Assembly: GCF_019635155.1 (NCBI RefSeq)
Contig: NZ_JAHBZY010000011.1
Span: forward strand, 1 to 64,000
Source: Nitrosomonas sp.
Lineage (GTDB): Bacteria > Pseudomonadota > Gammaproteobacteria > Burkholderiales > Nitrosomonadaceae
Reading direction: 5' to 3'
DNA length: 64,000 nt
In this document: positions 51,635-63,458 of the stretch, in pieces
How the letters are laid out: each line of letters opens with the position of its first letter
Numbering within the stretch: position 1 is the first letter of the stretch
Translations under genes and position numbers: made by a program
The notes under the pieces: generated by a model
What the model was told of the DNA's origin: nothing
Databases searched by the model: none
What the model saw: only the letters and a program-made list of their open reading frames with translations

Positions 51635-53131
51635 GTCTGCTCTGAACAATTCTATTTTCAGGGAAAGGCAAGCCTAAGCCGCTGAGTGATTCCGTATTCA
51701 TTCACTGTTAGCCGATGCAATGGCATGAGAATTAAGGCGAGAAGAAACCGGAGCTTCCTCAGAATCATCCGCAGGTTGTGTCCGCAACCGCAGAGCATGG
51801 CATGAAAGGCATCGCCTGCTGCGCCTTGCAGCCAGTTTCTGCGCAGGCGGCCGTCATTTTTCATATGCCCGATTGCCGGTTCAATGGCACTGCGCCGCCG
51901 AATATCTCGTTTCAGCCGCGCAGTGATGCCGCGTCTGAGTTTGCGGTGATAGACCTTGACCCCGGCCGGGACGGTTGCACCGCGATAACTCAGGTCTACG
52001 AACACTTCCTTCGGTTGCCGTTGCGTCAGGATGGCCGCCTGTTCCAAAGCCAGGTGCAAGGTATGCCCATCGTAAGGATTGCCCGGCAGGCTGCGCATGC
52101 CGACCACTAATCCTTCCTTGTGCGTTGTCATCACTGACACCTTTACCCCAAACTCATAAGGCTGGCGCGACTTGCCTTTGCCGATGCACTCCACTTCCGG
52201 CGCATGCAAGCTGTATAGCTTATGGCTGTCTTTCGGCTGCTGCTTGAGCAGGCGCTCGACTTTCTGCAGCAAACCGCTAACCTTGGGTTTAAGGGGCTGC
52301 GGTACCTTGGCCGATTGGCGAAATACGTCACGCCAGACGCGGCCAACCAGCGTCTTGAGCTTCTTTAAGTGGCTACGCATGCGCTGGTATTGTTTGGCAT
52401 GAGCATAGCGGCTAATCTTGCCAGCCAGCTTGGGCGCTAGCCGGTTGTAGTTCTGGCGTAGCGTTATCCCAGCTTCTGCCGCCAGCTGCACCAGTTGTTG
52501 CCGTCCCTTATTCAGCAGTTGGCTGTCGGTCGGATAGGCAATAGCCTTCTCCTGCACGGTGCTGTCCACAATGACCTTATCCAGACTATGCTGCTGGATG
52601 ACCTTGGCCAATGCAGCCGCCTTGATAGTCTGGGCCAAAAGCCATTCCATGCCCCCTACACCAATCCGCTGCCGCCAGCGAGTCAGTGAGCTGGAATCAA
52701 TCGGCGGGTGGTGCTGAAACCAGGTTTCGCCACAGAACAATTGCCAATAGGGATTCTCTACCCAACACCTTACTACCTCTTCATCCGATAGCGCAAAGGT
52801 GTGTTGCAGATACAGCATTCCAGCCACTAGACGCGGCGCCGTCGCGGGACGGCCGCGATGCGATGGAAAAAAACCAATCCATTCGCGTTCGAACACTGAC
52901 CAGTCGATGTGCTGCGCCAGTTGTACCAACGAATGTCTTGGGTTGACCAGATCATCTAGCCGTTGGCGGAACAGGTCGTCATTCTTTGGCGTGTGTGGCT
53001 TTGGTCCCATATAATCCTCACTAAATTCGCAAGAAATGGCAGTAATTTTACCAAAAACCGGTGAATTTAATCACTCAAACCTGTCAATTAAGTACACAGA
53101 ATTAGAATGTTATCGATTGTTCAGATCGGAC
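51635..53131 (-). mobile_element. Complete 1,497-bp IS5-family insertion sequence
   Basis: Terminal inverted repeats: GTCTGCTCTGAACAAT (51635-51650) and ATTGTTCAGATCGGAC (53116-53131), 14 of 16 positions matched. Both ends are flanked by the direct repeat TACATA (51629-51634 and 53132-53137), the target duplication. The one gene inside is an intact transposase on the minus strand. The IS sits inside an older IS5-family transposase remnant. Confidence 0.9.
51658..53010 (-). CDS. IS5-family transposase
   Basis: A 450-aa DDE transposase. The N-terminal DUF772-like domain has RPATAPRLVAGMLYLQHTF; the DDE residues are Asp in DKVIVDSTVQ, Asp in EVFVDLSYRG and Glu in RRSAIEPAIGHMKND. It has no frameshift and fills most of the element, so the IS may still move. 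A basic middle region (about residues 200-260) would bind DNA. The exact subgroup within IS5 is not determined. Confidence 0.92.
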   Translation of the reverse strand: MGPKPHTPKNDDLFRQRLDDLVNPRHSLVQLAQHIDWSVFEREWIGFFPSHRGRPATAPRLVAGMLYLQHTFALSDEEVVRCWVENPYWQLFCGETWFQHHPPIDSSSLTRWRQRIGVGGMEWLLAQTIKAAALAKVIQQHSLDKVIVDSTVQEKAIAYPTDSQLLNKGRQQLVQLAAEAGITLRQNYNRLAPKLAGKISRYAHAKQYQRMRSHLKKLKTLVGRVWRDVFRQSAKVPQPLKPKVSGLLQKVERLLKQQPKDSHKLYSLHAPEVECIGKGKSRQPYEFGVKVSVMTTHKEGLVVGMRSLPGNPYDGHTLHLALEQAAILTQRQPKEVFVDLSYRGATVPAGVKVYHRKLRRGITARLKRDIRRRSAIEPAIGHMKNDGRLRRNWLQGAAGDAFHAMLCGCGHNLRMILRKLRFLLALILMPLHRLTVNEYGITQRLRLAFP

Positions 53132-53295: not shown

Positions 53296-53766
53296 CTAAA
53301 AATTAGCCGATCACTCAAAAATAAACTCAGAGTTACATAGAAATAAAAATTTCGTGTGCTCTTGCAAAGATCTCATTATATCTCCTCTCCTTTGAACAGA
53401 ACATAATGTGTTCGCTCAAAGGAGCAACTCTGACTCTATTGTAGCGGCTCCAGTGGATGAATATGGAACTGCTCAGCAGTTCGGATTTATCTTTCCCTAA
53501 AAATCGAGAAGAAATATTGAAGATACAAAGTTATTTAATTTTTGTGATAAGAATCAATGAATTTTGTGATAAAGATCATTGAGAGAACTATATCTTGAAC
53601 AGATAATATGTTTGTTTATGCATTAAGAGTGAATATTCAAGCAATAGGGTATCGATTCGATTTTGATTAGCTGTTGCTTAAATTCTCAGTGCATTTACTT
53701 AAGTGTATGCGATCTATACAAATCACTTAGAACTTTATCAAGATTAACTACAATGGAGACCTGTCG
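53296..53766. other. 471-base gap with two Crp-like sites before the haem protein gene
   Basis: AT-rich and without a gene. Two Crp-like half-palindromes lie near 53543 and 53565, given as a separate feature. The remaining part shows no recognised promoter boxes. Confidence 0.5.
53543..53580 (+). promoter_or_regulatory. Two Crp/Fnr-like sites spaced 22 bp
   Basis: TGTGATAAGAATCAAT (53543-53558) and TGTGATAAAGATCATT (53565-53580) start exactly 22 bases apart, two helical turns. Both match the left half TGTGA of the Crp site well and TCACA of the right half partly. They resemble the palindrome TGTGATAAAAGTCACA upstream of the Crp-type gene at 60511. The target gene starts at 53767. Confidence 0.55.
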
Positions 53767-54753
53767 ATGAGCACTAGTTATAGAGTTATTAACATTTTGC
53801 GCAAAATAGTTTTTATCTCAGTACTGTTAGTTTCTTCATTTGCATCTGCAAACCAAAATAAATTGCCCTCACAGATCCGTAGTGATGAAGCAATATATGC
53901 AAGTTCTTTTTTCTGGGAAGCTATGAATAATGGTTTATATTTCCTTATTCCAGATGTTCTCAACGCATTAACAGGTGCCTATCTAAATGATAAGAATGAT
54001 GCAACAACAGCTGCACATATTGGTGCTGCACACGCCTGGCGCTTAAGTGAGAGAGAGCGAATGGATCCTATTCCTTCCACAATTACAGATGATGCAACAT
54101 TAGCTCGTAAATATTTTGATGAGAAAATGCGTATGGAACCCACCGATGCACACTTCATGGGTTTTTTAGGAAGTTTTATGATGTCCGAGGCTGATGTACA
54201 TGGAGACGAAAAATTAATGAAGAAAGGGTATGAAACATTGGTAAATAGCACCAAACTTTTTCCTGAATTCAATTATGTTACTGGGGCTCTAGCAATAACC
54301 GGTGGCGTTATTGAGTCGCCTTTCTCTGTAGATTCGGAAATTTTTAAACTTGCGCTAGAGTGGCAATGGAAAACTATAAATTTGTGTTATGGTCAAGTAG
54401 ATCGTTCAAACCCTGATGTCTCAATGTATATAAGTAAAGAAATACATACAGGTCCAAAAAAAGTATGCTGGAATAGCGCTACGGCACCGCATAAATTTGA
54501 AGGCTTTTTTTTGAACATGGGCGATATGCTAGTTAAATCTGGCGATTGGAAAACCGCACAGAAAATTTATGCAAATGCACGACTAGCATCAAGTTATTCT
54601 ACTTGGCAATATGCTAGCATTTTAGAACAACGTATTATTGAAGCTGAGACTAATGTCGCATTATTCAATGCGCCCAGGCAACCTTCGGGTCATTATATCA
54701 AACCAATGATGTCTCAATCTGCTTATTCTTGTACAGCTTGCCATCAAAACTAA
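53767..54753 (+). CDS. Periplasmic protein with C-terminal haem c motif
   Basis: A 328-aa protein with a Sec signal (IVFISVLLVSSFASANQ). The body is helix-rich and TPR-like (for example TTAAHIGAAHAWRLSERE and ARKYFDEKM). The last residues are SAYSCTACHQN, where CTACH is a haem c attachment motif right at the C terminus. No other CxxCH exists. I do not recognise the family. Crp-like sites upstream connect it to the cluster at 56-63 kb. A role in electron transfer or haem-dependent sensing is inferred. Confidence 0.7.
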   Translation: MSTSYRVINILRKIVFISVLLVSSFASANQNKLPSQIRSDEAIYASSFFWEAMNNGLYFLIPDVLNALTGAYLNDKNDATTAAHIGAAHAWRLSERERMDPIPSTITDDATLARKYFDEKMRMEPTDAHFMGFLGSFMMSEADVHGDEKLMKKGYETLVNSTKLFPEFNYVTGALAITGGVIESPFSVDSEIFKLALEWQWKTINLCYGQVDRSNPDVSMYISKEIHTGPKKVCWNSATAPHKFEGFFLNMGDMLVKSGDWKTAQKIYANARLASSYSTWQYASILEQRIIEAETNVALFNAPRQPSGHYIKPMMSQSAYSCTACHQN

Positions 54754-55122
54754 GGTGTAAGAATTTCTAGCATTGTGTTCACAGTATTCAAGGGAATGCT
54801 TGTAGATGAATATACACATAAAACGCAATTAATTGATTCTATTTGATTATCATGAGATATAACGGTTCTGCCTAACCCGGGTCTGGAAGGTAACGCGGTT
54901 GGCGGAATGCTTTAGATCTTTAGATGTAAATGACCCTAAGTTTTCTTATATTCTAATCAAAGAACACTATTCCTGCATGCTGTGTCCTTGTTTTGCAGGT
55001 ATACAATGGACAAAATACTGCTGCGTGGATGAGTAAATTTATAAATCTGATGAGGAATTCTACTTTATGCTATTTTAGATAGTTGCTGTAATTTTTAAAA
55101 ACTCAAAGAAAGGGAGTAATGT
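54754..55122. other. 369-base gap before the secreted-like protein gene
   Basis: No gene. The ribosome site AAAGGGAG lies before 55123. No terminator with a clear T-run and no Crp-like site was found. Confidence 0.4.
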
Positions 55123-55872
55123 ATGTCAGCAGAATCGCACTTAGCTAAATTTGGAGTCACAGTTCAGCAAGCGGAAGATTTTATCAATGCAAACATCCGA
55201 AATCCTGGCGATATATTCCAAGCGGCAAGAGAATATGGCGTTACGACTGAAATGCTGAGTGAATTATCGGGTTATTCAGTGGATGATGTACGCGGATATT
55301 TCGATAGTATCGAAGTAAATAGCAGGCAGTTAGATTTTACCAAGATACTGATAAATTCTGACTTAGGCTCTTTAGAATCTTTGATTTCGACTAACCAAAA
55401 AGAAGGGCTTTTATCAAATGACTCATTGGAAAAATTAGTTTCATCAAAAATAATAGATCCAGGAGATTACAAATCTTTCTTTCAACCTGTTAAATCATAT
55501 CAAGATGATGATGGTATTTATGATGCCGATGAATTAGGTGTATCCAGTTTAGGTAACATTCCTGCGACTGAGGGAAGCCTAAAATCGGTATTTTATGGCT
55601 CCTTAATTAACATATTTTCCAGACTTGATGATGCTGAAATGAATCAAATTAAAGTATTTCCAAATAAAGAAAGTGGAGAATACCAATCATTGCTTGTCAA
55701 TGCATTAAACTCACCTGCTGAAATCTCTAGAAATGATGCGGATCTCGCCAATTTAGTAGTAAATGAAACAGTTGATACTATCGCAAACTATTGGAAAGGT
55801 GTTGACCCAGATACTAATTTTGTCGATTACCGTACTGGTTTATTTGATTTTGGCTTATTAGGAAATATTTAA
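55123..55872 (+). CDS. Acidic protein with the N-terminal repeat domain of secreted Ca-binding-type proteins
   Basis: A 249-aa acidic protein without a classical signal peptide. The N-terminal 60 residues (QQAEDFINANIRNPGDIF, EYGVTTEMLSEL, YSVDDVRGYFDS) look like a domain I have seen at the start of large calcium-binding or RTX-type proteins in Nitrosomonas-like bacteria. DDDGIYDADE may bind calcium. It converges with the lipoprotein gene and a shared terminator lies between. It could be a substrate of the barrel protein at 56777; this is a guess. No named family. Confidence 0.6.
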   Translation: MSAESHLAKFGVTVQQAEDFINANIRNPGDIFQAAREYGVTTEMLSELSGYSVDDVRGYFDSIEVNSRQLDFTKILINSDLGSLESLISTNQKEGLLSNDSLEKLVSSKIIDPGDYKSFFQPVKSYQDDDGIYDADELGVSSLGNIPATEGSLKSVFYGSLINIFSRLDDAEMNQIKVFPNKESGEYQSLLVNALNSPAEISRNDADLANLVVNETVDTIANYWKGVDPDTNFVDYRTGLFDFGLLGNI

Positions 55873-55898
55873 AGATCAACAATGATTTGATTGATTTC

Positions 55899-55925
55899 GG
55901 GGTAATAGGTTAAATCTATTACCCC
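55899..55925. terminator. Perfect 10-bp hairpin between convergent genes
   Basis: GGGGTAATAG (55899-55908) and CTATTACCCC (55916-55925) pair perfectly around seven bases. It lies 27 bases after the stop at 55872 and 48 bases beyond the lipoprotein stop (55973), fitting a bidirectional terminator without a strong T-run. Confidence 0.7.
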
Positions 55926-55972
55926 GGAATCAATATTCTACTCATTCTGAAAAAGGATCTTAAAATTTCTCA

Positions 55973-56761
55973 TCAACAGCTACTATCCTTAACATGTGTG
56001 CAATCTCCTGATCCACCACTAATTCCACAAGATTTGCATGGATTTTGTTTATAGGTAATTACCGTCCATGTATTTAAGCTGGTAATCGTCATTTTTTCAT
56101 CCTCTTTTTCCTTTGTACCGCTATCGAGACGCAATGGGAAGTTAACTTTAATTTCTGGACTGAAATAATTATCTTTCCCTAAAAACAGCTGAGGCTGTCC
56201 AGTTTTATAATCATTTAAAACAACAAGCCCAATGTTTTCAATATCTGAGACTTTACTAAGCTCTTTGACAAATTGCGAATCAAGTACCTGTAAAGTATTT
56301 GTACTTAAATTGGTTTTTTCTTTTTCTTGCTTTTCGTTGAACTTACAAATTAACTCCGATAGATCTGGGCGACTTTGATTGTCAACAGTAATATATTTGC
56401 AGTAATCATATATTGTGCCGTTTATTTTAACTCCAGAGAGCCCAAGAACAGTAATAGTTGACAGCTCTCTTATTTCTGAAGCATTGTCCTTCAATGCATT
56501 TTCATATATCTCTTTCGGTCTGATAAAAAATTCATTTTCAACTTCTTTATCTGGTTCAGATTCACGAGCTAAGAATTTGGTTTTCTTATTATCACTATCG
56601 AATAGCGTAACAAATCCGAGGTTAAAATCCTTTCCTGAATCCTCTTTAAGTTTATTCTCAATTTTTGAAACGAGATCAGTAGGAACAGGTTTTGAGGAGC
56701 AACTAGCTAGACCGAGTACCAGTCCGAATAAAACCATTACGTAAAACAAACGATTTAACAT
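55973..56761 (-). CDS. Hypothetical lipoprotein in the FecR-TPR-barrel operon
   Basis: A 262-aa lipoprotein. The signal VMVLFGLVLGLASCSSKP ends with the lipobox Cys at about residue 21. The mature part is charged, with no domain I know, and ends with a Cys-rich tail (CKSCGISGGSGDCTHVKDSSC). It starts 15 bases after the stop of the FecR-TPR-barrel gene, so they are co-transcribed. A pairing of TPR-barrel protein and lipoprotein resembles surface-lipoprotein export (Slam) operons. Confidence 0.75.
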   Translation of the reverse strand: MLNRLFYVMVLFGLVLGLASCSSKPVPTDLVSKIENKLKEDSGKDFNLGFVTLFDSDNKKTKFLARESEPDKEVENEFFIRPKEIYENALKDNASEIRELSTITVLGLSGVKINGTIYDYCKYITVDNQSRPDLSELICKFNEKQEKEKTNLSTNTLQVLDSQFVKELSKVSDIENIGLVVLNDYKTGQPQLFLGKDNYFSPEIKVNFPLRLDSGTKEKEDEKMTITSLNTWTVITYKQNPCKSCGISGGSGDCTHVKDSSC

Positions 56762-56776
56762 ATTTCAGCTCCCTTA

Positions 56777-59700
56777 TTAAAAATTTAATGTGACTCTTGC
56801 GAAGATTATGCGACTAGGAACAAAACGAGTAACAGTGGTTTGAGATGAGTGAAAGTTTATGTCTTGAAACAAAAAATTCTCGTCGAATAGGTTTCTTGCT
56901 TCTAAACTGAAAATACCTTTTCGATTAGGAAACCGGTAACCAATCGACGCATCAATAAGGAAGAATTTTTCGGGTTTCTCATTTTTCACTCCGTTACGCT
57001 CTATGTTTTGGTGAACATATGTTCCAGCTATACTGGTAAATAAACCGTTAGGATTAAAGTAGTTAATACTAGTCGGAATACTTAGAGTTTCAATTTTGTG
57101 AGGCTCAAAGAATCCAGAAATTGCTTCAAAACGAGCTTCACTTTTAGCGCTCCAGTTTTTATGTAAAATCCCATAAATATAACTAGAATATAATTCTTCC
57201 TTTTGTTTTTGGGTTGATGATGTGTTACTTGATGAAATCGGAAAGCTTAAATCACGTGCTGAAATTTCAAAACCACTAAATATTTTGCTGTCATAATGCG
57301 CATCAAGTCCAATTCCCATTCGACGAGATTTTGTACCATCAAGATCATCAAATAGTTGATTAAACCCAGCAATCTGAATCGGCTCTATAGTTTGATAAGT
57401 GGCTAAAGGGGCTTTAATTGTTTCGATCCAAGCCATACGTAATCGCAAGTTATTGAGGATATCCCACTGAATTCCAAATTTCGGATTAAATCCGTCAATG
57501 GTATGAAAATCTGTTTGATGATAGGAATCATAGCTAAATCCCACAGTTGCATTTAGATTTGGAACAAAGTTGAGATTGGAATAGATATAGCCATTAGTTT
57601 TATCATGGTTTCCAGTACTAGGTACTGGATTACCAATTGGATTGCTGTTAACCGCGCTTATTATTTGAGAGGATTGGTCAAAATTCGTACGAAAAACTCC
57701 AGAGCCCGCTATCAAACTGAATAAATGATTGTGAAAATGATATTGGATTTCAGTTTGGTAGCCTTTAATCCTTTTATTGACAAGATTGTGCTGGAGACTT
57801 ACTACGTTGGTGATGTCTTCAAATTTTTTATCATTAAATTGACCGGATAGAATAATATACTGGTTGGTTGATAGATCATATTTGGCACCTAAACGGGCGG
57901 CGTCGTCATCAATTTTACGTCGAATTCTATTTTGTGCATCTCTGGGATTATTCGAGGGCTTATCGAAGTTTTGCAATAAATTTCCTTGATCCGATGAGCG
58001 TGTACGTACTTCAGCCTGGATATTCAATTTAGTGGTTAATGCATGTTGAACGAAGGCATTGAGAATATCATGATTCTGGTCGTTGTTTCTGCGAAACCCA
58101 TTCGTTTCATAATGAAACTGCCCCAGACTAATTGATGTTCTCTCATTAAATTTTGAGAAAACCAGCTCATTTCCCAGGGTACTATTACTTCCAGCAATGC
58201 CTGAAGCGACAAATTGTGGTTTGCTGCGCTCCATCAATGGGGTAAATTCATTAAACCCTGCAGCGGAAGGGCCCGTGCCGGTAATGATATTAAGATCAGC
58301 TACAACCAAATGTGGTTGCACGGGATTGATGTTGATCGGTTGTAGCAGTTGTGCTTGCAAGAGCTCACTAACTCTGGCCGCTTCATGTCGTGGAGTATTT
58401 GCATATGTATCCGATAAAAACCGGTGTGCCGAATGATTCGTGGGATCGAAGCTCAGTGATTTAGCCGCTTCCATCACAGCACGTCTTTCAAATCCCAAGT
58501 TCTCGAAAATTCGTGCCAGGCTGGAGCCACGTGCCGCTTCATCGCGGTCCAGCAGAAACTTGGAACGGTATACCGCGCGGTTATTGTTTAGCTCAATCGA
58601 TTTCTGAATATCCCGCAAGGCTTCCACCGGGCGATTCTGCGTTTGTTTTTGAATCGCATCATAAAACCATGGAGTTGGGTCTTTAGGGTCGCGTTCTTTA
58701 GCGAGATCAAACTGCGTGCTGGCAAGCGGATAGCGCTTTTCCTCAAAGTAGGCTTTACCAAGGTAACTGCGGATTAGAGAATTTGCCGGATCCAAACCGG
58801 CAGCATTTTCCAGCTCTATTCGACCTGCTTCCAGCTCCCCTTCGCGAATTAAGGTAAGTCCTAATCCAAGCCGTGGCATGGGATCGGCTTGATCCAATGC
58901 GATCGCTCTATGGAAAATTTCTTTCGCGGCTTGAGTGTCGATTTGCAACAAATGAGCGAAACCAAGAATCGTTTGGGTTTTACCCAAATGAGGATTAAGG
59001 CTTACCGCTTGGTTGGCTGATTCCAGCGCACGATCGAGATGACCGGTGGACATCTGGAGCTCCGAAAGACGCGCCCAAGCTAAAGCATTCTGGCCATCAA
59101 GCAGAATAGTCTCCTCTACGCTGCTTAAAGCTTCTTCAATCTGAAAATCAGCTTGTTGCGCATAGGAGAGCGCTAGCCGCGCTGTAGGTGAATTACGATC
59201 AACTTCAACGGCTTGTTGTGCGAGTTGCAATGCTGCTTTTTTATCATTCTGTACAACCGCGATGATTGCTTGTAAAGCATAGGCTGCACTATTATTGGGT
59301 TGTAATCGCAAGGCCAGATCGATATCTTTTTTTGCTTCTAGAATGCGACCAAAGGTCAGATAGAGTCCCGCACGGTATGTAAGTAGCTGGGGCGTTAACG
59401 CTTCAAAGTCAAGTGCTTTAATTAAAGAAAGTGCTTCAAACATCTTGTCTTGTCGATAGCGTTCCAGCGATTCACGAACATTTGTTTGTAAAACTTGGGG
59501 AAGCTGTTGTTCGATGACATGAGTATCGATAATTGTTGGGTAATATAACGCCCATTGCACTGCGTCAATGGGTTTGATATCGATTTTCGCATGTGGTGCT
59601 TGACCGATTAGAGCTTGCGCAGTTTCTCCTGGGCTTAGATTAACACTACCTTGCGTATTAAAGAATTTGACATGACCTTCATACACCCAGAGTAAAGCTT

Positions 59701-60169
59701 CTTGATCATCAACTTTGATGGCAAATTCGGTTCCTTCAGGACCTGCGTTGGCGATGGGGGTAGTAATTTCCAGGCGAGTCGGAGTGCGGCTTAGGAAATG
59801 TATGAATCCTTTTAATAGATCAAGCAGCGTGGGCTGATTGGCTGTGATACCTTTTAAGGTTAGAACCGTACCTTCATCGAGGCGGACAAGGATGTTATTG
59901 GGTAATCGAATCGAGGCGCGGCTATTATTACCTACTTTGACTCGACTTCCTTCGCATATCACATGATCTTGATTTACTAATTGCCATTCTCCAGTTCCAG
60001 CTAAGTCAATCCACAGTTCTCCTTGTATCGAAGTCAATTGAGCGAAAGCTTGATTTGTACATACGTTGACTTGTATTTCTGCAAAACAATTGTGTGGGAA
60101 GAAGATAAATAGATTTAGAAAAAAGAAAGATAAAAGTGATTTGAAATTATTTTTATTACGCTGAGTCAT
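56777..60169 (-). CDS. FecR-TPR-outer-membrane beta-barrel fusion protein
   Basis: An 1130-aa envelope protein. After a signal peptide (LLSFFFLNLFIFFPHNCFAEIQ), the FecR-like domain runs from about residue 35 to 200 (SRVKVGNNSRASIRLPNN, RLDEGTVLTL, GTEFAIKVDDQ, VKFFNTQGSVNLSPGE). Roughly eight TPR repeats follow (about 230-560; for example YLGKAYFEEKRYPLASTQFD). The rest is a beta-barrel of alternating strands ending ARVTLNF, with Phe last as in outer-membrane proteins. The start is set at the ATG at 60169; a GTG at 60205 is in frame. No TonB box or plug domain is seen, so it is less likely a nutrient receptor than an exporter or assembly platform. The lipoprotein gene follows at 15 bases. 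Confidence 0.8.
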   Translation of the reverse strand: MTQRNKNNFKSLLSFFFLNLFIFFPHNCFAEIQVNVCTNQAFAQLTSIQGELWIDLAGTGEWQLVNQDHVICEGSRVKVGNNSRASIRLPNNILVRLDEGTVLTLKGITANQPTLLDLLKGFIHFLSRTPTRLEITTPIANAGPEGTEFAIKVDDQEALLWVYEGHVKFFNTQGSVNLSPGETAQALIGQAPHAKIDIKPIDAVQWALYYPTIIDTHVIEQQLPQVLQTNVRESLERYRQDKMFEALSLIKALDFEALTPQLLTYRAGLYLTFGRILEAKKDIDLALRLQPNNSAAYALQAIIAVVQNDKKAALQLAQQAVEVDRNSPTARLALSYAQQADFQIEEALSSVEETILLDGQNALAWARLSELQMSTGHLDRALESANQAVSLNPHLGKTQTILGFAHLLQIDTQAAKEIFHRAIALDQADPMPRLGLGLTLIREGELEAGRIELENAAGLDPANSLIRSYLGKAYFEEKRYPLASTQFDLAKERDPKDPTPWFYDAIQKQTQNRPVEALRDIQKSIELNNNRAVYRSKFLLDRDEAARGSSLARIFENLGFERRAVMEAAKSLSFDPTNHSAHRFLSDTYANTPRHEAARVSELLQAQLLQPININPVQPHLVVADLNIITGTGPSAAGFNEFTPLMERSKPQFVASGIAGSNSTLGNELVFSKFNERTSISLGQFHYETNGFRRNNDQNHDILNAFVQHALTTKLNIQAEVRTRSSDQGNLLQNFDKPSNNPRDAQNRIRRKIDDDAARLGAKYDLSTNQYIILSGQFNDKKFEDITNVVSLQHNLVNKRIKGYQTEIQYHFHNHLFSLIAGSGVFRTNFDQSSQIISAVNSNPIGNPVPSTGNHDKTNGYIYSNLNFVPNLNATVGFSYDSYHQTDFHTIDGFNPKFGIQWDILNNLRLRMAWIETIKAPLATYQTIEPIQIAGFNQLFDDLDGTKSRRMGIGLDAHYDSKIFSGFEISARDLSFPISSSNTSSTQKQKEELYSSYIYGILHKNWSAKSEARFEAISGFFEPHKIETLSIPTSINYFNPNGLFTSIAGTYVHQNIERNGVKNEKPEKFFLIDASIGYRFPNRKGIFSLEARNLFDENFLFQDINFHSSQTTVTRFVPSRIIFARVTLNF

Positions 60170-60510
60170 TTTTAGGCTTAACTTACTGGTAATATTCCTA
60201 GCCACATTAGAGTACGAGTGTAATATTTGCTATTTTACTTGTATTTTCCTAAAAAACTAAAATTAATTATATTGTTAGATATGATTGGAAAACTGCCTAA
60301 TTAATGGAGGAGTCTTAATTTTATGAAAAATACATTTTGATTGAAACTGAGTAACTTAAAGCGTTTTATAACGAATCAAAGTTACTGGTGAAGCTAGGAA
60401 CGAAAACTAAGAAAAATATACATGTAGGTGTTAAATTCTTCTGTGATAAAAGTCACAGGCTATTTGTGATGTTTCGCACCTATTATTAGTGCTTAAAACC
60501 GGTTTAATTT
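60170..60510. other. 341-base divergent region between barrel protein and Crp gene
   Basis: AT-rich with no gene. It holds the palindromic Crp-type site at 60442-60457 and a weaker copy at 60465-60480 (TGTGATGTTTCGCACC). The region could control both divergent genes. Confidence 0.5.
60442..60457 (+). promoter_or_regulatory. Crp-type binding site TGTGA-N6-TCACA
   Basis: TGTGATAAAAGTCACA is a perfect match to the TGTGA-N6-TCACA symmetry. It lies 54 bases before the ATG of the Crp-type gene (60511) and about 270 bases before the FecR-TPR-barrel gene on the other strand. Autoregulation is likely. A weaker second site overlaps 60465-60480. Confidence 0.7.
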
Positions 60511-61173
60511 ATGGAAACAGTTGATCTATTAAGAAGTAATGAGCTATTCAGTCATCTTGGGGATGCTGAATTAAAAATGGTGGCTGAACTCACTAAAATT
60601 AGAACTGTACCAAAAAATACCCTACTTATCAGTGAAGGCGATATGTCGGATGTCATGTATCTGATTAAAGAAGGGAAAGTGGACGTCATGGTTACCAATG
60701 AAAAGGGAGAGCAGTTTGTATTATCGACTTTGAAACAAGGTGAGAATTTTGGTGAATTGTCTCTGTTGGACAATCATCCTCGATCAGCCAGCATCATTAC
60801 ATTAGAAAAAAGTATATTGATTGCGTTACATAAAGAGGATTTTCTTCGCCTTATTGAACATAATCATACGATTGCAAAAGGTGTGATCAACTATCTCTGT
60901 CAAAGAATTCGTTTTGTGACCTCGATCGCCCAAAGCATGGCGCTACTCGATGTCTATGGTCGATTATGTAAATTATTACACGATCTCTCGAAACGAGATG
61001 AAGGAGGAAAAGGTATCATCGAATCGCCATTGACCAGGCAAGCAATGGCGTTACGTATTGGCTGTAGCAGGGAACATGTAAGCCGGATCTATAATGGCCT
61101 TCTAAAAGGTGGCTATCTTATTGAAGAGGAAGATCGAGTTATTATCGATAAAAAGTTACCACCGGCCTGGTAA
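60511..61173 (+). CDS. Crp/Fnr family regulator with intact cyclic-nucleotide pocket
   Basis: A 220-aa regulator. The phosphate-binding cassette FGELSLLDNHPRSASI (about residues 85-100) contains the Gly-Glu-Leu and Arg-Ser residues that bind cAMP in Crp, and there is no N-terminal cysteine cluster as in Fnr. The long C helix runs about 115-145, and the HTH is MALRIGCSREHVSRIYNGLL. It lies convergent to the CHASE2 cyclase, and the Crp-type sites at 53543 and 60442 fit its expected target. It probably responds to cAMP made by that cyclase. Confidence 0.9.
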   Translation: METVDLLRSNELFSHLGDAELKMVAELTKIRTVPKNTLLISEGDMSDVMYLIKEGKVDVMVTNEKGEQFVLSTLKQGENFGELSLLDNHPRSASIITLEKSILIALHKEDFLRLIEHNHTIAKGVINYLCQRIRFVTSIAQSMALLDVYGRLCKLLHDLSKRDEGGKGIIESPLTRQAMALRIGCSREHVSRIYNGLLKGGYLIEEEDRVIIDKKLPPAW

Positions 61174-61238
61174 GGTCTTAAATTCCTCCTTTCTCCATGT
61201 GATTGCTTCATAGGTGTTTTTAAAAAACTATTCGATCA

Positions 61239-63458
61239 TTATTTACCTTCTAAAACGAGTGCACCATTCCAATTAGCTGGTTCATTTTGTTGATGTCGCT
61301 GTGCATTGGCCAAATAAAATTCGGTCGGCCCATCATTTCCATATTGATCTAAAATACTTTGAAAAATAATGATTGCATTTTTCCATTGACCCTTCTGAAA
61401 TAGCTGTAAGCCTTCAGAAAAATTTTTATAGAGCGGGTAGTTGGGATGAGTCAACAGCTTGCCTATTCCAATAATTTCAAAAAGCTCTATCGGTTCATCC
61501 TTGCCAACTAGATGAAACCTCCCTACTGATCTGGACATAATATTGCTCAAGTCCGTAACGATAAGGCCTGATGCTAGGATACGTGTTTTGAGATATTTGT
61601 TAACGCCTTCGATTCGAGAAGCGGTGTTGAGGGTATCACCAAAAGGATTATAAAACAGGGATCCGGCAGATTTGATGCACATTAGATTGATGCTGCCTGC
61701 GTTTATGCCGATGCGAGTGGGAAGAGCGCTAATAGACGATGTTTCATTGAATTTATTTACTTCTTTTTGTATTTCTAGTGCAGCAATGCACGCCGCATAT
61801 CGTTGCGTGGCTGGTGGTTGGTCGATCCAGATAGCCATCATGGCATCGCCTTGGATGTTTGCGATATAACCTTTATTTCCAGCAATCGGCTGCCCTAGCA
61901 TTTGGTAGTAGGATTTCAGGAGTTGTCTTAGTTCTCCACTTTTTTCAAGTCGTTGTGCTGTTTTGGTATAACCTTGTATATCGGTAGCAAGGCATATGCT
62001 TTGCACATTTTGTCGTTCAATCCTTTCTTCCTGGGTATTCCAGAGCTGAGGTAACTGCGGTATCGAGTCAGCCCACTGAGGGAAGATTTTTTTAATAAAA
62101 TTATAGATAAATTTTCTTTCTTTCAATAAGCCACTTATCTGCAAAAAGAAGTAAATCACGTAACTAGTCAATAACTGCCAAAAAGGAATTACGATTGGCA
62201 ACCAAATTCCGTTGTTGAATAGATAAATACTGAATCCTGCATAGATGCAAAATGTAACAAAGCTGGATGATAATCCGATTGATCTTCGAAATATTACGAG
62301 CTGTAAGCTGGTGACAAAACCAAAGCAGACAATAATCAGGATCGGAGGGAAGGGGGAGGCGATAAATCGATCATCTAACAAATTGGAAAATTGCGTTGCT
62401 AAAATCTCCACACCTGACATTCTTCCCGTTTGATCATTAGTAAAAGGTGTGGGAAAAAAATCAACTTTTCCTTGTGCAAAGAGCCTATTTAATTTTCCGA
62501 TAAATATAATCTTCCCTTGTAGATCATCCGCTTGGCCATTGTAAACTGTTTTATACGATAAAGTTCTGAAGCTTTTGGGAGGTCCATAATAGTTTAGATA
62601 CCGCGTATCGCTATCACATATTAGCTGCTCTAGTTTGATTTTTAGGCTTGAATTCATAGTTTCACGCAAAGCAAACTGATGGGGATTCGATTTGCAGCTT
62701 GCTCTTTGTTCAGCAAGCCAGGCGGAAGCAGCTTGGTTTTGGGGAATAATATTCAGCAATAATCCATTTTTACGAAGGTGATTTATCCAGGCTACCAGTG
62801 GCAGGCTTGGATTCTCAGCAAGCGCATCAAAAAACAGCCAGGCTTCTTGGATGCTGGAATGCTGAACATAATCAGGGAGATAAAAGGGCGCGCGATCCAA
62901 TGCGGCATCGGCAATAACATGAGTGGGAGCGATCTTACGCAAGCCAATCATCAGTGCATCAACTTGATCAGTCTCACCCTCCTTGTTGATGAAAGGTACT
63001 CTATACCTATTCGAGCAGTCGTCTCTTCCAGCAAAGATATTTTTGTCATTAGATAACGTAATTTTCTGGATACATTCACTCAGTAATACATTGCCTGCAT
63101 GCTGCATCGCCGCTGCCATTATCTGATCTTGCTCCGGGAAAGATTGAATGAACTGCAGATCAAAGATGATTAGTTTGGCCGATTGTTTTTGCAGCTCGTT
63201 TATCAGCTTTGCATGAAATGGACGCCAGTCAATTAGCTGTTCTTGAGTTATGTTTGAGTGAGTCTCAGAAAAAAAGAACTCAGATGCTTCATCCATTGCC
63301 ACTATCACGACATCTTCAGGTGGAACGCGAACACCGCGAATCTCGAACAGCTTGTTTAAACCATAGTCGCGGTCAACATCGGTTGCGAGGTGGATAATGC
63401 TTCCTGATAGAATTGACAGGAAAGCAATCAAGCTAAATTGTGCTAGCTTATGTAGCAT
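61239..63458 (-). CDS. CHASE2-domain class III adenylate cyclase
   Basis: A 739-aa membrane protein. An N-terminal transmembrane helix is followed by a periplasmic CHASE2 sensor (about residues 35-370; for example VVIVAMDEASEFFF and IIFDLQFIQ) and three more helices (about 375-450). The cytoplasmic cyclase domain has metal-binding Asp in CLATDIQGYT and NIQGDAMMAIW, and the transition-state Asn and Arg in GDTLNTASRIEG. Lys in LVGKDEPIELFEI and Asp in FGDTLN point to ATP as substrate. It ends with a short TPR-like tail. It is convergent with the Crp gene. Confidence 0.92.
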   Translation of the reverse strand: MLHKLAQFSLIAFLSILSGSIIHLATDVDRDYGLNKLFEIRGVRVPPEDVVIVAMDEASEFFFSETHSNITQEQLIDWRPFHAKLINELQKQSAKLIIFDLQFIQSFPEQDQIMAAAMQHAGNVLLSECIQKITLSNDKNIFAGRDDCSNRYRVPFINKEGETDQVDALMIGLRKIAPTHVIADAALDRAPFYLPDYVQHSSIQEAWLFFDALAENPSLPLVAWINHLRKNGLLLNIIPQNQAASAWLAEQRASCKSNPHQFALRETMNSSLKIKLEQLICDSDTRYLNYYGPPKSFRTLSYKTVYNGQADDLQGKIIFIGKLNRLFAQGKVDFFPTPFTNDQTGRMSGVEILATQFSNLLDDRFIASPFPPILIIVCFGFVTSLQLVIFRRSIGLSSSFVTFCIYAGFSIYLFNNGIWLPIVIPFWQLLTSYVIYFFLQISGLLKERKFIYNFIKKIFPQWADSIPQLPQLWNTQEERIERQNVQSICLATDIQGYTKTAQRLEKSGELRQLLKSYYQMLGQPIAGNKGYIANIQGDAMMAIWIDQPPATQRYAACIAALEIQKEVNKFNETSSISALPTRIGINAGSINLMCIKSAGSLFYNPFGDTLNTASRIEGVNKYLKTRILASGLIVTDLSNIMSRSVGRFHLVGKDEPIELFEIIGIGKLLTHPNYPLYKNFSEGLQLFQKGQWKNAIIIFQSILDQYGNDGPTEFYLANAQRHQQNEPANWNGALVLEGK

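Follow-up and report, generated by a model that had tools for sequence, protein, structure and literature searches.

We examined positions 53,543 to 63,458 of a 64,000-nucleotide stretch of Nitrosomonas sp. DNA (assembly GCF_019635155.1, contig NZ_JAHBZY010000011.1, positions 1 to 64,000; hereafter the window), where a CHASE2 nucleotide cyclase, a Crp-type regulator and a FecR-TPR-barrel protein with a companion lipoprotein are encoded side by side. A sequence-only reading of the region had proposed a circuit controlled by cyclic AMP (cAMP), in which an envelope signal reaches the cyclase and the regulator adjusts the neighbouring genes. The core of the locus is as follows.

55973 to 56761, minus strand: probable small lipoprotein with a C-terminal Cys pair, in one operon with the barrel gene (lipobox called by eye)
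56777 to 60205, minus strand: NsrA-like FecR-TPR-TonB-type barrel protein, 1142 amino acids from GTG 60205 (Pfam, profile match)
60442 to 60457: perfect Crp palindrome TGTGATAAAAGTCACA, flanked by the divergent barrel and Crp genes (pattern search)
60511 to 61173, plus strand: Crp-type regulator, 220 amino acids (Pfam cNMP-binding and helix-turn-helix domains, residue alignment, substitution rates)
61239 to 63458, minus strand: CHASE2 class III nucleotide cyclase, 739 amino acids (Pfam, tree, substitution rates)

Domains were called with Pfam in six window proteins. The cyclase carries CHASE2 at residues 36-380 (E 5.3e-24) and a class III Guanylate_cyc domain at residues 483-655 (E 1.4e-10). 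In the regulator, the phosphate cassette (G-E..R-S) is intact and the recognition helix (R-E...R) is retained; the cassette reads G-E-R-S in 38 of the 39 rows of the Crp residue alignment and G-E-R-T in the other, some genomes being present twice. FecR (88-180), TPR and TonB-type barrel (732-995) are joined in one protein, in which Pfam found no plug or STN match; its start is likelier ATG 60169, followed by what by eye is a signal-like stretch, than GTG 60205. The lipoprotein gene begins 15 base pairs (bp) downstream of the barrel gene and its product has no Pfam match. The cyclase, the regulator with its cassette, the fusion and the probable lipoprotein of the barrel operon thus have the domain make-up that the sequence-only reading had described. 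Furthermore, purifying selection acts on all five genes compared, with ratios of nonsynonymous to synonymous rates (dN/dS) of 0.025 to 0.20, synonymous sites being near saturation for some. The ratio is 0.025 for the Crp gene (against locus L087), 0.09 for the cyclase (against L087) and 0.14 for the lipoprotein (against L051).

The kinship of the barrel protein is indicated by a profile of three alphaproteobacterial NsrA-like proteins, which aligned with its Nitrosomonas-side family over nearly the full length (hhalign probability 100, E 7.2e-43, 1024 columns, 19% identity). Those three proteins adjoin CHASE2 cyclases in S. meliloti, Rhizobium and Methylocystis, the gene lying directly upstream of that of the cyclase.

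Linkage of the three families and the recurring Crp site

Profile matches of the cyclase, the barrel and the native-type Crp were surveyed in 85 genomes of the genus, the window's own included. The cyclase was found in 72, the barrel in 70 and the native-type Crp in 71; all three occur in 68 genomes and none in 11. Among the 13 genomes without the cyclase, the barrel is missing from all 13 and the native-type Crp from 11. The p values for co-occurrence, like those for the sites below, were computed ignoring descent.

A scan of named genomes gave no match with the single cyclase as query and 341 relatives with a cyclase alignment, of which the best 80 were kept by cyclase match alone. These loci include ones from Nitrosomonadaceae, Methylococcales, other Gammaproteobacteria, Thermodesulfobacteriota, Nitrospirota and one member of the Brocadiales. 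We used 79 of them (L137 was dropped, no cyclase open reading frame (ORF) having been picked), and the neighbour counts rest on the 43 with 5 kb on both flanks. A barrel gene lies within 5 kb of the cyclase gene in 37 of these 43 loci, a Crp-type gene in 15, where about 0.7 would be expected at the density of the window's own genome (4 such proteins), although other genomes may have more Crp genes, and a barrel together with a Crp-type gene in 13; in other genomes the three families adjoin one another in several gene orders. The conservation in related genomes that the sequence-only reading had named as a check is present (barrel 37/43, Crp 15/43, joint loss within the genus). The cyclase, barrel and Crp genes are real and belong together.

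The palindrome before the regulator, previously described as near-perfect, is in fact perfect; TGTGATAAAAGTCACA is centred upstream of both genes, about 61 bp from the ATG of Crp and about 244 bp from the GTG of the barrel gene. The window's own genome has 9 perfect TGTGA-N6-TCACA sites, against 1 for a reversed control pattern, and the fetched loci, where some genomes are present twice, have 37 against 1. We then counted sites in the 350 bp before each gene, using unique regions and taking Nitrosomonadaceae and outside groups apart. In Nitrosomonadaceae, 14 of the 46 regions upstream of the barrel gene contain a perfect site, against 5 of 436 for other ORFs, which were mechanically defined and may share a promoter with a system gene. 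With up to one mismatch the figures are 23/46 and 8/436, and the reversed control gives 1/46 and 1/436 (enrichment p 4e-20, ignoring descent). The Crp gene is preceded by a perfect site in 4 of 14 Nitrosomonadaceae regions. The other cyclase and barrel genes of the same genome likewise have a palindrome between them (C6:969-984).

The exact 16-mer of TGTGATAAAAGTCACA occurs twice more in the genome, at G000:C8:76594 and G000:C15:31772. A PEP-CTERM-like gene and a lipoprotein-like gene, both recognized by eye, lie near these copies and are candidate regulon members.

A proposed trans-envelope pathway and its known relatives

We propose, with a probability of about 0.68, that these genes form a trans-envelope module like NsrA-CyaK-Clr, in which Crp feeds back on the barrel gene. 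In such a module, the outer-membrane barrel with its periplasmic TPR and FecR parts would receive a signal from outside, perhaps with the help of the Cys-pair lipoprotein. The barrel protein would then contact, presumably through FecR, the periplasmic CHASE2 domain of the inner-membrane cyclase. The cyclic nucleotide made by the cyclase would activate the Crp-type regulator, and the latter would bind 60442-60457 and adjust both its own gene and the divergent barrel-lipoprotein operon, so that the pathway would feed back on its receptor. The chain from envelope signal through CHASE2, cyclic nucleotide and Crp to the barrel gene, as first suggested from the sequence, is favored by the neighborhood, the presence/absence data and the recurring sites. 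Two of its parts did not hold: cAMP as a safe assumption for the messenger, given the base residues of the cyclase, and the haem protein gene as a target, to which nothing that we found links it.

The sequence-only reading had known of no characterized pathway joining these parts. There is one in S. meliloti, where the barrel NsrA, the CHASE2 cyclases CyaK, CyaD1 and CyaD2 and the Crp-family regulator Clr act in one pathway, through which a plant signal increases cAMP (PMC7529298, PMC13001267, PMC10463352, PMC5498481, PMC9927233). The loci are SMb20776 for CyaK and SMc02175, SMc02176 and SMc02177 for Clr, CyaD1 and a FecR-domain protein, respectively. This pathway and the CHASE2/FecR clusters of Campylobacterota give the module its precedent. 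In S. meliloti CP141213, a gene for a 1190-residue FecR-TPR protein, the barrel part of which has no Pfam match, stands directly upstream of a CHASE2 cyclase gene, and the same protein is annotated on pSymB of CP140921. We infer that it is NsrA, because of its size, its FecR-TPR make-up and its neighborhood. NsrA-like/cyclase pairs are also annotated in Rhizobium BG4 and Methylocystis iwaonis.

The two systems share an outer-membrane barrel, needed for perception in S. meliloti, an inner-membrane CHASE2 cyclase and a Crp-family regulator. They differ in several respects: the barrel match is at 19% identity only, and in Nitrosomonas the cyclase gene usually comes first. Moreover, the cyclase base pocket is D/R or N/N here and K/S there, and the Crp base contact is L-T or V-T here, whereas it is T-T in Clr (PMC10127613). 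The small Cys-pair protein and the Crp site before the barrel gene are additional here. In the Campylobacterota clusters a CHASE2 cyclase likewise accompanies a FecR-domain outer-membrane protein, but with a phosphodiesterase and a separate TPR protein, and the section on these clusters names no Crp gene among them and does not treat the base pocket (PMC9239204). The Burkholderia BiofilmReg operon also pairs a FecR protein with a CHASE2 sensor; however, this sensor is a histidine kinase, the FecR is fused to LysM and the output is a response regulator (PMC5192318). Another CHASE2 protein of our genome, an open frame of about 960 residues adjoining a FecR protein (G000:C47:42977-45219, L035), recalls in its layout the FecR-LysM/CHASE2-kinase operon of the same report (PMC5192318). 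Finally, FecI-FecR-FecA has a FecR domain and a TonB-type barrel in common with the window, but here FecR is fused to the barrel, a cyclase is involved, and no ECF (extracytoplasmic function) sigma factor or STN domain was found in the six window proteins scanned, sigma factors elsewhere not having been searched.

Among the papers listed by our literature searches, none described this module in Nitrosomonas, most subscription journals lying outside the search. The module is of a known kind, real and conserved, with altered messenger-recognition sites. The experimental work that we met on a signal crossing two membranes to a CHASE2 cyclase comes from one symbiont. In this genus of ammonia oxidizers, the three parts tend to be present or absent as a set, and they adjoin in methanotrophs and some other groups; the Crp site before the barrel gene offers a candidate built-in reporter.

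Several observations weigh against the proposed pathway. The window layout (cyclase and Crp genes convergent, barrel gene divergent) was seen in one other lineage only, that of L087 and of L177 of genome G104, whose Crp is identical. The Crp-type gene is within 5 kb of the cyclase in only 15 of the 43 loci. The cyclase occurs without the barrel in G098 (a weak cyclase match) and G119 (75% complete), and without the native-type Crp in G092, G117 and G119, while the native-type Crp stands alone in G061 and G082. Half of the Nitrosomonadaceae barrel upstream regions are without a Crp site. Outside this family the barrel gene is preceded by a perfect site in 0 of 41 regions and by one with up to one mismatch in 2 of 41, the figures for the Crp gene being 1/17 and 3/17. 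No perfect site was found in the 350 bp before the cyclase gene in 52 Nitrosomonadaceae regions; in some Nitrosospira-type loci one lies about 351-367 bp before it, just beyond that stretch. Pfam calls the TonB-type barrel in 9 of 18 family members, the S. meliloti protein not being among them, so that in the remainder it rests on homology. Last, the C6 barrel of the same genome is an alternative candidate partner for the window cyclase.

The barrel could instead be an exporter or surface-display channel for the Cys-pair lipoprotein, the cyclase-Crp arm only regulating it. In its favor, a small ORF was found downstream of 78 of 96 barrel genes (66 unique), and a terminal Cys pair is present in 43 of these 66 unique ORFs, that of the window included, against 32 of 716 mechanically defined control ORFs, the motif having been defined after inspection of the sequences. 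However, the FecR domain and the joint loss with the CHASE2 cyclase point to signaling. Furthermore, Pfam found no Slam match in the barrel protein, the only related hit being a weak TPR_Slam (E 0.083) at the cyclase C-terminus, and the match to the PgaA model is far under cut-off. We therefore judge export improbable and keep the signaling module as our preferred reading; in this module the Cys-pair protein may serve the barrel as ligand, plug or cargo.

The base pocket of the cyclase and the base contact of the regulator

Which messenger would such a module use? The class III catalytic residues are kept in the window cyclase, both those for metal binding (D493 and D538) and those for the transition state (N611 and R615). 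In the 124-row cyclase alignment, where some genomes are present twice, both metal Asp and the transition-state Arg occur in all 124 rows and the transition-state Asn in 120. The two adenine-specifying positions are different:

61857 to 61859, minus strand: codon of Asn534, at the site of the adenine-specifying Lys of class III adenylyl cyclases (alignments with PaCyaB 3r5g, photoactivated cyclases and the family)
61647 to 61649, minus strand: codon of Asn604, at the site of the adenine-specifying Thr/Asp (alignments with solved cyclases and family members)

The window cyclase therefore has Asn/Asn in place of the Lys and Asp/Thr pair. The ATP-site residues had been called intact; judging from the alignments, this word fits the catalytic residues and not those that specify adenine, so that cAMP is an unsafe assumption. 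Throughout the family, the first site is Asp in 100 rows, Asn in 11, Glu in 7, Lys in 4, and Gln and Arg in 1 each, and the second is Arg in 94, Asn in 13, Ser in 9, Thr in 5, and Asp, Gly and Ala in 1 each. Guanylyl cyclases are reported to have Glu at the Lys site and Cys, Ser, Thr, His, Ala or Gly at the second (PMC4215837), a pattern that the Asn/Asn of the window does not match. Since guanylyl cyclases carry this Glu, an acidic residue at the first site could suggest GTP as the substrate, and Asp/Arg for Lys/Thr would be a charge swap suited to guanine. No description of an Asp/Arg pocket was met in the literature on cyclase and receptor specificity, judging by titles and the beginnings of abstracts.

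The receptor side has changed as well. The E. coli-type cAMP contact, Thr127/Ser128, is absent from the window Crp, which has V/T there, and most of its relatives lack Thr127, the usual pair being L-T. Each Crp was assigned the first cyclase found in its own fetched locus, at a distance of up to about 6.5 kb, and unique sequences were counted. Among the 31 pairs obtained, a cyclase Asp is accompanied by Leu at Crp-127 in 26 of 26, and the five non-Asp cyclases (Asn, Asn, Gln, Glu, Arg) by Val, Ile, Ala, Thr and Ala, respectively. The two sites thus vary in step in 31/31 pairs, with few independent events and shared descent; the p value of 6e-6 ignores descent, two of the five non-Asp pairs being sister sequences.

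The messenger may nonetheless be ordinary cAMP, the altered pocket still taking ATP and the Crp being a usual cAMP receptor, in a pathway otherwise the same as the one we propose. We put this somewhat below even odds. In S. meliloti, the CHASE2 cyclases are part of a cAMP pathway (PMC13001267), and the Crp phosphate cassette is intact. Moreover, the genome has only two class III cyclases, both of this CHASE2 family, and a search of it for class I adenylate cyclases found none, classes other than I and III not having been searched. On the other side, Lys is present at the adenine site in 4 of 124 rows only, 3 of which are the alphaproteobacterial outgroup, and the acidic residue Glu at this site is the guanylyl-cyclase pattern (PMC4215837).

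A more far-reaching proposal, tentative and rather unlikely in our estimation, is that the messenger has been re-specified, the Asp/Arg cyclase and the Thr to Leu change in Crp having gone in step, and that the window pair, with Asn/Asn and Val/Thr, is a second insulated channel, at least one of the two using something other than cAMP. On C6 the same genome also carries a barrel and an Asp/Arg cyclase, the latter truncated by the start of the contig, and on C1 a Leu/Thr Crp, one of 4 Crp-type proteins in all. If the proposal were true, two outer-membrane barrels would feed two insulated cyclic-nucleotide channels in one cell. Should the altered base pocket change the messenger, the family would offer a natural series of joint cyclase/Crp messenger changes.

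In a quick tree with SH-aLRT (Shimodaira-Hasegawa-like approximate likelihood ratio test) support only, from which the cut cyclases of C6 and G098 were left out, the window and L087 cyclases group beside 13 methanotroph-type rows (12 labelled Methylococcales, 1 uncultured) and outside the 39-row clade of the other Nitrosomonadales rows. The window barrel (75%), lipoprotein (75%) and ORF6 (82%, described below) are close in identity to those of L051 and appear native in kind. To judge from these sequences, the window copy is a second module, with a methanotroph-grouping cyclase beside a native barrel-lipoprotein pair. The same grouping and the 75% identity of the barrel would also be expected if the cyclase and Crp genes had arrived together from elsewhere and were chance neighbors of the native pair. 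We find this quite improbable, since the same three families stand together in other genomes in several orders and a perfect palindrome is also found upstream of the L051 barrel gene, which has no Crp gene next to it.

A Pycsar-type anti-phage defence was also considered, since PycC models match the cyclase (best E 3.3e-10) in the cyclase domain common to both and related loci carry suggestive neighbors, a PycTM-domain protein beside the NsrA-like pair of Rhizobium BG4 and a DUF5706 protein beside the barrel gene of S. meliloti. But no full PycTM or PycTIR was found among the three window proteins scanned, and the Crp matches only the cyclic-nucleotide-binding part of TIR effector models. In addition, the adenine site is Asn or Asp here and apparently Arg in EaPycC (R142, four residues before the metal D146, as deduced from PMC11224242), and a transcription-factor output with promoter sites fits regulation. 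Membership was set aside as very improbable, neither the pyrimidine-specific pocket nor a PycTM/PycTIR effector having been found (three window proteins searched). The PycTM-domain (Rhizobium BG4) and DUF5706 (S. meliloti) genes are divergent from the NsrA-like gene, at L084:4051-4590 and L180:7235-7780.

Neighboring genes and minor sites

Two further features were noted around the core:

60465 to 60480: possible second, degenerate Crp site, weak, with 2 mismatches (23 bp from the perfect site; chance-level quality)
55123 to 55872, plus strand: ORF6, 249 amino acids, often beside the lipoprotein-barrel pair, membership unsure (homologues at fetched loci)

The promoters at 53543-53580 and 60442-60480 each contain two TGTGAT half-sites spaced 22 to 23 bp, a suggestive arrangement; by mismatch count all of these except the perfect site are of chance quality.

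The 53543-53580 pair precedes the gene of the supposed haem protein and had been read as two sites related to the Crp palindrome. Each has 2 mismatches, and such sites are no more frequent in the window than expected by shuffling (26 seen, 29 expected). Inspection by eye of the 260 bp upstream of the homologous frame showed no such pair in the three relatives found, and the gene occurs in 4 of the 85 genus genomes, its own included. Its product has no Pfam match, the haem call resting on one CxxCH near the C-terminus. With sites at chance level, unseen in three relatives, and a rare gene, we set it aside as a regulon member, and its link to the module is unsupported.

ORF6 has no Pfam match over cut-off and, by eye, no signal peptide. 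Homologues are present at 11 of 40 fetched loci, its own included, and a perfect Crp site precedes the gene in 2 of 13 unique upstream regions.

The haem-type homologue in L191 (relative G059) has an internal stop. Upstream of the haem-type gene of the window lies an ORF (51658-53010) that by eye is transposase-like and may have helped to assemble the composite locus.

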